From Eubacteriales bacterium (GTDB taxonomy: Bacteria > Bacillota > Clostridia > Lachnospirales > Lachnospiraceae): DNA of 57,823 nt. The notes under the pieces are model-generated. The model saw only the letters and a list, made by a program, of their open reading frames with translations. It had not been told where the DNA came from and did not search any database. Location of the stretch: contig JAUNPJ010000017.1 of NCBI GenBank assembly GCA_030536755.1, positions 1 through 57,823 on the forward strand, written 5' to 3'. Of the stretch, positions 24,836 through 32,307 are shown in pieces (position 1 is the first letter of the stretch; the number at the start of each line of letters is the position of its first letter). Position numbers and translations under genes: made by a program.

Positions 24836-25438
24836 ATGGAACAGAAATTTTATGTTTGCGAACATTGTGGGAAAATTGTAGCGATTGTTAAGGAAAGTGG
24901 CGCTTCGCTGATGTGTTGCGGTGAGAAAATGAAAGAATTGATTCCAGGAACCACAGAGGCGGCCACAGAAAAACATATTCCTGTCTGTACAGTAAAGAAC
25001 AATCAGGTGACAGTGACAGTAGGTGAGGTTTCCCATCCGATGATTCCGGAACATTACATCGAATGGATTTCTCTGGAGACAAAACAGGGCAATCAGAGAA
25101 AAGTGTTAAAACCGGGTGACAAACCGCAGGCATCTTTTGCTATTTGCGAAGGGGATGAAGTGGTTGCCGCATATGCTTATTGCAATTTGCATAGTCTCTG
25201 GAAAAAAGAAATCGAGGAGAAAAAGCAGGAGGAGCAGATGCAGGATGGAAATTATATAGTATGTAAATGCAATAATGTCAGCTATTATGATATTATTGAT
25301 CAGGTACATAAGCATAACAATATGGACGAACTTCTCAAAGTTTTTGAAGATGTAAGAGATACAACACGTTGTTCTACAGGCTGTGGTGGGTGCTATAATA
25401 AGGTTATGGATATTATTTCCAAAACGATTATGGGATAA
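24836..25438 (+). CDS. Desulfoferrodoxin fused to a BFD-like [2Fe-2S] domain
   Basis: A 200-residue cytosolic redox protein that reduces superoxide to peroxide without making oxygen. Centre I ligands are C8, C11, C27 and C28; centre II ligands are H47, H67, H73, C116 and H119 (EKHIP, SHPMIPEHYIEWI, YCNLHSLW). Normal desulfoferrodoxin ends near residue 125. Here a Lys/Glu-rich linker leads to residues 140-198, which match the bacterioferritin-associated ferredoxin fold: C143-x-C145 and TGCGGC with C183 and C186, plus an extra C179. The added cluster probably passes electrons to the superoxide-reducing iron. ATG 24836 follows AAAAAGGTGATAA. Confidence 0.9.
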   Translation: MEQKFYVCEHCGKIVAIVKESGASLMCCGEKMKELIPGTTEAATEKHIPVCTVKNNQVTVTVGEVSHPMIPEHYIEWISLETKQGNQRKVLKPGDKPQASFAICEGDEVVAAYAYCNLHSLWKKEIEEKKQEEQMQDGNYIVCKCNNVSYYDIIDQVHKHNNMDELLKVFEDVRDTTRCSTGCGGCYNKVMDIISKTIMG

Positions 25439-30674: not shown

Positions 30675-30734
30675 TCGAGAATGGTATCACTGATACCATT
30701 CATGATACGATTGATACCAATATGGAGAAGAGAA

Positions 30735-31277
30735 ATGAAAAAAAGAACGAAGATTTTGGCTGCAGGTGCAGTGACTGTCCTTGTTATTACCGCCGCAATA
30801 ACAGCAAAAAAATATGTATCTGTTGATCGTGATGGCAGGTCGATATCGATTATTGGCGGTTCAGATGGACCAACATCGATCTTTTTGGCAGGAAAACTGT
30901 CGGGAGAGGATGAAAACGAAGACGAATATGAAAATGAATATATATCCATTACGATGGAAGAAGCCAAAACGATTTTTGAAGTTCCCGGTGACTATGTGAT
31001 TGTAGATGTCAGAACAGTGGAGGAATTTTCGCAGGGGCATATTCCGGGGGCGATCAATATTGCAAATGAAACGATTACAGATGAGGAACCAAAAGAGCTG
31101 CCGGATAAGAATCAGACGATATATGTGTATTGTCGAAGCGGCAACAGAAGCAAACAGGCTTCGGCCAAACTTGCAGCAATGGGCTATACGGATGTGATTG
31201 AGTGTGGCGGAATTCTTGACTGGACAGGAGAACTTGACATGAAGTCAGCACTTCCCATGCGACGAAGATTTGGATGA
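30735..31277 (+). CDS. Membrane-anchored rhodanese-like protein
   Basis: A 180-residue protein starting at ATG 30735 after ATGGAGAAGAG. A basic N terminus and one helix (about 7-24) anchor it outside the cell. Residues 37-52 read SISIIGGSDGPTSIFL, the same motif found in the beta subunit of sodium-pumping decarboxylases. An acidic linker leads to a rhodanese domain (about 75-172) with VDVRTVEEFSQGHIPGAINI and the active-site loop CRSGNRS (Cys present). Rhodaneses move sulfane sulfur. The end (RRRFG) is basic. It stands alone. Confidence 0.82.
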   Translation: MKKRTKILAAGAVTVLVITAAITAKKYVSVDRDGRSISIIGGSDGPTSIFLAGKLSGEDENEDEYENEYISITMEEAKTIFEVPGDYVIVDVRTVEEFSQGHIPGAINIANETITDEEPKELPDKNQTIYVYCRSGNRSKQASAKLAAMGYTDVIECGGILDWTGELDMKSALPMRRRFG

Positions 31278-31409: not shown

Positions 31410-31438
31410 TTGACAAATAAGCGGAAATGTTGTATAGT
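31410..31438 (+). promoter_or_regulatory. Near-consensus promoter of the 31.4-kb RNA locus
   Basis: TTGACA at 31410-31415, exactly 17 bases, TATAGT at 31433-31438. Among the best sigma-A matches in the window, although no conventional gene follows before the terminator at 31710-31755. Confidence 0.8.
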
Positions 31439-31577
31439 AAAATCATCAAAAGAAACAAGGAATTCAAAAATTAAAAGAAAGAGGTAGAGTCCAATGTACG
31501 CTTAGTCTTTATTCCAAATTTTAAAAAATCTCTGAAAGAGTTGATCGTATAGATGTAACAGAAGGAGATGATACATA

Positions 31578-31598
31578 TGAAAGGCAGAGGCCCATAGA
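31578..31598 (+). CDS. Six-residue ORF MKGRGP
   Basis: ATG 31578 stands nine bases after AAGGAG (31563-31568) and is followed by a TAG after six codons. Good ribosome site; existence of the peptide is unproven. Confidence 0.3.
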
Positions 31599-31687
31599 GA
31601 CAATATCCGAAAATTAAAACAGGAGGTACGGTCCAACAAAAACTTAATCCACTACTCATAATCTAAGAAAGTCGAAGGTGTATAAGA

Positions 31688-31711
31688 TGAAATTACTGAA
31701 TATTCACTAAT
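31688..31711 (+). CDS. Seven-residue ORF MKLLNIH
   Basis: ATG 31688 stands eight bases after GAAGG (31675-31679); the TAA at 31709-31711 is the first arm of the terminator stem, so ribosomes stopping here would sit on the terminator. Unproven peptide. Confidence 0.3.
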
Positions 31712-31755
31712 AGCCCGGTCGAGAGGAAAAAGAATCGATCGGGCTATTATTTTGT
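31710..31755. terminator. Strong terminator, probably bidirectional
   Basis: AATAGCCCGGTCGA pairs with TCGATCGGGCTATT over 14 bp (one G-U) around a 12-base A-rich loop, then ATTTTG. It ends the 31.4-kb RNA and, read leftwards, lies just after the TetR gene. Confidence 0.9.
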
Positions 31756-31770
31756 CCTGGGATGAAAAAA

Positions 31771-32307
31771 TTATTCAACGGGTGGATATTTGATTTTATA
31801 GGCTTCATTCAGCACATCCATCATATAATCAATATCATACTGTTTGTGGTATTTCTGATAGGTATAGAATCCGCCCTGAATCTGGAAGGTCAGAAGGATG
31901 TTGACCTTGGGGTCGTCTTTTGCTTCCGGAATTACCTTGAAAATGTAATCTTTTAATTCTTTTTCCAGATTGCTTGCCAAAATAGAAGACTGTGAGCCGG
32001 AAAATAAGATATCGATCAGAGTCTGCTGCGTGTGAAATGCATGAAAAAGAAGCTCGGTAAATTTGACGCTGTCGGATAAACACAGCTCCGCTTGGGGAAT
32101 ACTGTCCAGGACACTTTTTAAGACTTCTTTCTGAAGGCATTCGGAAAGATCGTAAATGTCACGGTAATGCAGATAAAAGGTTGCCTTGCTGATTTCCGCC
32201 AGTTCGGCAAGTTCTTTGATGGTGATTCGTTCCAATGGTTTTGTAGTTCTTAATTGTATAAATGCATTCTTAATACTTCTCTTTGTTTTTTTCTCTCTTA
32301 AATCCAT
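31771..32307 (-). CDS. TetR/AcrR-family regulator
   Basis: A 178-residue repressor. The N-terminal HTH reads RSIKNAFIQLRTTKPLERITIKEL-type helix, then AEISKATFYLHYRDIYDL, the classical TetR recognition helix. The C-terminal ligand domain has no clear signature. It is divergent from glgB and convergent with the 31.4-kb RNA; either could be its target. Translation starts at ATG 32307 behind AAGGAAGTAT. Confidence 0.88.
   Translation of the reverse strand: MDLREKKTKRSIKNAFIQLRTTKPLERITIKELAELAEISKATFYLHYRDIYDLSECLQKEVLKSVLDSIPQAELCLSDSVKFTELLFHAFHTQQTLIDILFSGSQSSILASNLEKELKDYIFKVIPEAKDDPKVNILLTFQIQGGFYTYQKYHKQYDIDYMMDVLNEAYKIKYPPVE

Follow-up and report, generated by a model that had tools for sequence, protein, structure and literature searches.

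By comparison with its relatives, the locus described here is one member of a large and apparently uncatalogued RNA family; it lies in a 57,823-nt stretch of Lachnospiraceae DNA, the whole of which is called the window below. Members of this family share a plan that consists of a near-consensus sigma-70 promoter, 1 to 11 ribosome-binding units, a terminal open reading frame (ORF), and a terminator. The comparison points to a stand-alone RNA with tandem ribosome sites and a terminal ORF that appears to be coding and embedded in the terminator. Our reading, which we hold tentatively, is that of a translation-responsive decoy or buffer RNA whose 3′ end may be coupled to translation and which may act in trans.

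Organization of the locus

The transcription unit in the window holds four ribosome-binding units. Its parts and its neighbors are as follows:

30681-31277, + strand: upstream neighbor, a rhodanese-domain gene
31410..31438, + strand: sigma-70-type promoter, near-consensus (11/12 matches), with TTGACA at 31410-31415 and TATAGT at 31433-31438, 17 nt between
31478..31505, + strand: unit 1, GAGGTAGAGTCCA and the mini-ORF ATG TAC GCT TAG (MYA-stop), ATG at 31494
31530..31559, + strand: between unit 1 and unit 2, the hairpin CTCT-GAA-AGAG and the TATAGATGTAAC element, conserved in a 5-locus alignment
31561..31597, + strand: unit 2, GAAGGAG and the mini-ORF MKGRGP-stop, ATG at 31577
31618..31647, + strand: unit 3, GGAGGTACGGTCCA and the start-less frame ACA AAA ACT TAA, with its in-frame stop
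31674..31710, + strand: terminal unit, GAAGGTG and the mini-ORF MKLLNIH-stop, ATG at 31687, stop inside the terminator stem
31708..31756, + strand: intrinsic terminator with 15-nt arms and a T tail
31771-32307, - strand: downstream neighbor, a convergent gene whose match to TetR_N is weak and sub-threshold

The original prediction, made from the letters of this stretch, had placed here a TTGACA-N17-TATAGT promoter and a 14-bp terminator with no ordinary gene between them. The promoter is as claimed, and no ORF of at least 80 amino acids lies between 31278 and 31770. The terminator arms (31708-31722 and 31735-31749) are 15 nt long and 93% complementary, with a 12-nt loop and TTTTGTC following; a simple inverted-repeat scan with a loop limit of 8 omits this terminator. 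The ultrashort ORFs are present as well, with ATG codons one base lower than had been given. The prediction had also described a duplicated GAGGTA..GTCCA block with ultrashort ORFs. Such units turned out to be general in the family, and the second block (31618-31647) itself precedes the start-less frame of unit 3, which had not been counted. The last ORF does end in the terminator stem: its TAA (31708-31710) provides the first three bases of that stem.

Several features of this copy recur in close relatives. The mini-ORF of unit 1 has the counterparts MA, MGK, and MGT, each followed by a stop (L003, L004, L005, and L008). In five relatives, the peptide of unit 2 reads MKKGRGP, MKGRAP, MKGRDP (twice, with CCA and CCT), or MEGRGP, and the constant parts are GGC AGA, the proline, and TAG. 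The subfamily to which the window belongs is marked by a middle ORF M(K/E)GR(G/A/D)P-stop in six loci and a terminal MKLxxIH-stop. For the hairpin at 31530..31559, the single compensatory change seen by eye is CTCC/GGAG in L005. The window copy shows no strong global structure, because the minimum energy of the whole-RNA fold has a z of only -1.86 and 4/100 shuffles fold as well.

Two further copies are found in the same genome, namely, L002 (contig C92, about 25027-25200) and L264 (contig C23, about 2883). The congeneric counterparts of the latter, L263 and L265, keep the mini-ORF stop while it changes from TGA to TAA. Among the neighboring sequences, the N-terminal half of the rhodanese gene matches the OAD beta subunit below the cut-off, and a perfect 10-bp inverted repeat, GAATGGTATCAGTGATACCATTC, lies at 30679-30701 of the window between the hydroxyacid dehydrogenase and rhodanese genes.

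Distribution of the family

BLAST searches of 98 relatives returned full or partial copies; L003 to L008 look genuine, and L009 to L013 look like chance matches. A model of a single unit that uses sequence alone, built from 69 units, has a match in 177/397 genomes of the window's family and in 151/334 genera. The unit 18-mer, allowing at most one mismatch, was found in 104/397 family genomes, compared with 14 for the reversed control pattern. We fetched 109 distinct placements and kept 100, discarding nine as chance matches (mostly inside long ORFs). With a weight matrix that covers the site and spacer, 219 units were found in the transcripts of 100 relatives and two in shuffled transcripts; 39 transcripts have one unit, and the maximum is 11.

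Searches with short patterns beyond the family were less informative. An exact 17-mer matched 1/246 genomes across the order, and that genome belongs to the window's own family; the 17-mer is a poor guide to absence from the order because it also performs poorly inside the family. Across the class, the 18-mer matched 8/196 genomes (three in the own family, one of them a known chance match, and five outside) against seven control matches. Viral contigs scanned with the unit yielded 14 matches; on reading, none showed an array with a promoter, and we claim no link to phages.

The family appears to be absent from the catalogs that were searched. No Rfam 15 covariance model reached its gathering score in the window, and the best sub-threshold match in the element is SpF39 (19.8 bits vs. 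a cut-off of 60). The same models gave only two tRNA matches on 20 family loci plus six distant loci, and ARAGORN found no tRNA or tmRNA gene in the window. A search of the open-access journal literature returned no description of this RNA.

Promoter, terminator, and gene neighborhood

Promoter-like sites of the same quality as that of the window (at least 11/12 matches, within the 350 nt that precede the first unit) are present in 76/98 family members, compared with 6/332 random flank windows and 3/98 shuffles. At the seventh position past the -10 hexamer, 79/80 relatives have an A, which is likely the transcription start. A terminator, as scored here, was found in 86/100 family members, and the median length from promoter to terminator is about 370 nt.

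Co-directional genes are no commoner downstream (61/95 loci) than upstream (66/98). The Pfam families are diverse on both sides; the commonest is glycosyl hydrolase 3 downstream (10/95) and LUD upstream (6/98). Relatives conserve the promoter, the units, and the terminator but not the neighboring genes. This comparison therefore supports the small RNA gene that had been proposed as one option, and the locus is, on that evidence, a stand-alone RNA gene and not a leader.

Internal ribosome-binding units

In each unit, a spacer separates the Shine-Dalgarno sequence from the codon that occupies the start position, and a stop in frame with this codon usually comes after three codons. Units are at least 46 nt apart; their spacing is mostly 51-60 nt and most often 51-54 nt, which would leave room for one ribosome on each. 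Unit number can change in whole steps, as the congeneric loci L002 and L006 differ by exactly one 56-nt unit.

The codon at the start position is often not a start codon. Among the 219 units, it is CCN in 106, ATG, TTG, or GTG in 80, AAG in 16, ACA in 12, and another codon in five, such that 139/219 units have no start codon; unit 3 of the window is of this commonest type. Part of the units have AUG, one or two codons, and a stop, and many start-bearing units have only two or three codons (MA, MY, MKT, and MGT, each followed by a stop). In the long arrays of L121 and L122, start-bearing units of two or three codons come first and start-less units come after. Since the 18-mer bait favors CCR and ACR at this codon, the count was repeated with a bait that ends before it. 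This independent set comprises at least 81 matches in at least 80 loci, of which 71 were kept by eye; 10 loci were left out by eye (L188 among them may be genuine) and L167 was left out later. Among the matches listed, the codon is CCN in 44, AAG in 15, a start codon in eight, and another codon in four.

The reading frame set by this codon is kept with respect to the stop. All 139 start-less units have an in-frame stop within 18 codons, compared with 96 and 127 in the other two frames. The corresponding numbers are 62/63 vs. 43 and 52 in the independent set (among the matches listed), and 13/15 vs. 6 and 12 in 15 diverged CCN units that the matrix had missed. Units without a stop at codon 4 still favor frame 0 moderately (41/51 within 30 nt vs. 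23 and 28; p 2e-4, a value that is optimistic, as are the other p values, because the sequences are related). Codons 1-2 of the start-less units show no excess of third-position changes (30/30/28), and for this reason, we do not claim translation of these units beyond the stop.

The start-position codon, or codon 0, is coupled to the spacer. The variable base of GG(A/T)CC, two positions before the second C, is A in 91/105 CCN units and T in 58/80 start units. Of the 44 transcripts that contain units of both kinds, 31 have the A more often in their CCN units, one has it more often in its start units, and 12 are tied. In the independent set, among the matches listed, the A and T counts are 34 and 10 for CCN, 1 and 14 for AAG, and 1 and 7 for start codons. 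Codon 0 is thus CCN with GGACC and AUG or AAG with GGTCC, combinations predicted to close and to open a Shine-Dalgarno hairpin, respectively. In this prediction, the A completes the hairpin GGU-ACGG-ACC, and pairing of the codon-0 CC with the Shine-Dalgarno GG lengthens the stem. The modeled local energy averages -3.4 kcal/mol for the CCN-unit hairpin and -1.9 kcal/mol with AUG or AAG substituted. CCN units can, according to these models, pair with their own Shine-Dalgarno sequence, in a weak hairpin. The predicted accessibility of the Shine-Dalgarno sequence does not differ from that in flank-shuffled controls (0.43 vs. 0.41, p 0.37). A hairpin loop, GACGAGAAA, occurs in 14/80 transcripts vs. 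1.0 in shuffles, both in internal hairpins and in terminators. Its carriers include L005, L025, L032, L052, and L055; L005 was read by eye and is outside the 80.

Terminal ORF and terminator

Among 170 candidate loci, 150 have a terminator and 20 do not as scored here. A ribosome site with a mini-ORF that ends near the stem, searched from -8 to +15 for the distance between stop and stem, precedes 127/150 of these terminators, and 23/150 have no terminal ORF. Other terminators of the same loci served as a control and have such an ORF in 4/72, with a score threshold of 20 that is stricter than the 17 used for family terminators. The stop-to-stem distance has a median of +1 and an interquartile range of -1 to 3, and the ORFs are mostly 5 to 7 codons long.

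The terminal ORFs start with ATG (88), TTG (35), or GTG (4) and stop with TAA (62), TAG (39), or TGA (26). Changes between nearest neighbors number 31/40/67 at codon positions 1/2/3. Given the three start codons, the three stop codons, the excess of third-position changes, and the matching changes between stem stop and partner in distant relatives (see below), the terminal ORF looks translated. Its peptide sequence is only loosely held, since non-synonymous changes (66) outnumber synonymous ones (37). Examples of the peptides are MDSIV, MDEIV, MIEESK, and MDNEIR, each followed by a stop. They are net acidic in 108/127 cases and have an acidic residue at position 2 or 3 in 111/127; MKLLNIH of the window is not acidic.

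Distant relatives

Outside the window's family, the class has diverged forms in five or more families. When the unit model was run on 148 class genomes, three matches fell outside the window's family, each of them showing the same plan. One of the three belongs to a family in which 8/16 genomes match, and all eight loci have this plan. The same holds, among the matches listed, for three loci of the independent scan labeled Oscillospiraceae or Clostridia. The distant form has one 5′ mini-ORF (MRN, MRI, MKT, and similar, each with a stop), a longer middle part in which hairpin-like segments are conserved, and the terminal ORF MLDIKSEQK-stop or similar. In L320 (genome G790, from another family), tandem GGTACGGTCCGATGTTCCGGTA repeats (MFR-stop) lie directly 5′ of the terminal ORF MTLDIKNEQK-stop.

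A model of the 3′ end of the distant form matched 13/245 class genomes in six families. Nine of these loci, leaving out L324 and L332, were read; seven show the plan, and L323 and L325 lack the element. In 18 distinct distant loci with a stop codon inside the stem and a matching partner, the pairs are TGA.TCA (14), TAA.TTA (2), TAG.CTA (1), and TGA.TTA (1). An alignment of 11 sequences of the distant form has compensatory changes in 8/24 predicted pairs. In this comparison, the joint change of stop and stem partner appears to be what most strongly indicates that both the frame and the terminator are retained.

Possible functions

The RNA may be built for ribosome binding rather than for protein output. 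On the decoy or buffer reading, which we regard as plausible if short of probable, start-less or self-closing units would hold or test 30S subunits and release a tripeptide at most, and the start-bearing mini-ORFs would hold one ribosome each. A ribosome completing the terminal mini-ORF would have to open the lower terminator hairpin, with less termination or exposure of the 3′ end to exonucleases as the result. As this opening depends on a ribosome ending the last ORF, the RNA level would answer to translation: plentiful initiation would lower the amount of intact RNA, and a failure of ribosomes or of early elongation would raise it. The output would be exerted in trans via ribosome occupancy. 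According to one study (PMC11282234), early acidic residues cause ribosome pausing or drop-off that is relieved by EttA in Escherichia coli, and early acidic codons decide the attenuation by mgtL. Because of this effect, the terminal ORF would be a plausible sensor in the acidic branch of the family only, and not in the case of the window's MKLLNIH. A more specific version is doubtful: the evolvable array of ribosome sites, with CCN or AAG in place of the start and the in-frame stop kept, would be a dosage-tunable 30S decoy, its 3′ end set by a ribosome reading into the terminator stem, that measures or buffers translation capacity across Clostridia.

CsrB and RsmZ are sponge RNAs that titrate a CsrA-type regulator. 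By analogy with CsrB and CsrA, the tandem GGAGGUACGGACCACC hairpins could titrate a translational regulator (an RNA-binding protein or a small RNA). The stand-alone gene, the tandem copies in variable number, and the conserved local hairpin of CCN units agree with this idea and recall the repeated GGA-containing, hairpin-like units of those sponges. However, CsrA scores above the Pfam cut-off in only 15/46 RNA-positive genomes tested, and the genome of the window contains no match, such that a CsrA sponge was rejected as a general explanation. Genes with look-alike ribosome sites, which were considered as targets, were likewise rejected: they are not in excess (in 18 genomes, the pattern has 111 matches and its reversed control has 131). 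A sponge also accounts neither for the in-frame stops nor for a translated ORF that ends in the terminator, and we consider it unlikely. In G030 (L254) and G230 (L261), an exact look-alike of the ribosome site of the unit precedes two long ORFs, with 310 and 221 codons; these ORFs are possible co-regulated genes, although such look-alikes do not exceed the control.

The short peptides (MKGRGP, MKLLNIH, MDSIV, and MLDIKSEQK) could themselves be the product, as signals or nascent-chain sensors, with the rest of the RNA as a leader. The coding signature of the terminal ORF and the retention of MLDIKSEQK with synonymous changes in distant families are consistent with this, as is the R-x-P-stop of the window's middle ORF, which we take to resemble known arrest motifs. 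Yet the terminal peptides vary widely between loci, have 5-10 residues and no secretion signal, and the start-less units yield no peptide by any known route. We regard a peptide gene as quite unlikely, and the tandem peptide signal that had been suggested for the window gained no support, as nothing ties the peptide to export or sensing.

In leader-peptide attenuators (trp, pyrBI, and mgtL type), the position of a ribosome on a short ORF can decide transcription termination. The present RNA is like them in having a short translated ORF that overlaps a terminator, to judge from the 127/150 family terminators and the control above, and, for mgtL, in the early acidic residues found in most family terminal ORFs. 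An attenuator that acts through ribosome position had been proposed for the window, and its geometry stands, with a stop at or inside the terminator stem family-wide. The gene to be attenuated is missing: in the window, the gene that follows is convergently oriented, and in the family, the downstream genes are diverse and no more often co-directional than the upstream ones. Cis attenuation, in which mini-ORF translation would decide read-through into the next gene, was therefore rejected as a general explanation and is improbable. Further differences are that the stop lies in or at an intrinsic terminator stem and that tandem ribosome sites lie upstream.

A minigene-type inhibitor, causing peptidyl-tRNA drop-off and tRNA sequestration, would suit the many start-bearing units of two or three codons but is very improbable given the majority of start-less units and the fact that no rare codon recurs in the units.

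Comparison with known systems and significance

Known RNAs resemble this family in parts. It shares with the CsrB/RsmZ sponges a stand-alone RNA with repeated units, but CsrA is absent from most carriers tested, the units keep frame and stop, and the terminal ORF appears to be coding. SgrS and RNAIII are dual-function small RNAs with an ORF, and VcdRP is reported to be another; here, codon-position and stop-codon comparisons likewise suggest a small RNA that is also translated. Unlike those RNAs, the ORFs in this family have 2-10 codons, several occur per RNA, and many are start-less. Look-alike ribosome sites, as candidate pairing targets, are not in excess. STAB-SD stabilizers are single elements in long mRNA leaders, in which a Shine-Dalgarno sequence binds 30S without a translation start. 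Binding of this kind is predicted here, in a repeated array with in-frame stops and a gene of its own. Minigenes such as the two-codon ORF of lambda bar have, like these units, a strong ribosome site, few codons, and a stop. The minigene mg2 of axe-txe is reported to act in cis on txe (PMC8708949). In the present family, the arrays are mostly start-less and reside in a stand-alone RNA.

We know of no counterpart for this design, which differs from every class known to us. The stop codon embedded in an intrinsic terminator would be a conserved device, and genome annotators may be missing a widespread, probably strongly transcribed gene. If this is confirmed, dominant gut bacteria would have a conserved RNA organized around ribosome binding without protein output, and it would give direct access to the way in which cells sense free ribosomes and early elongation.
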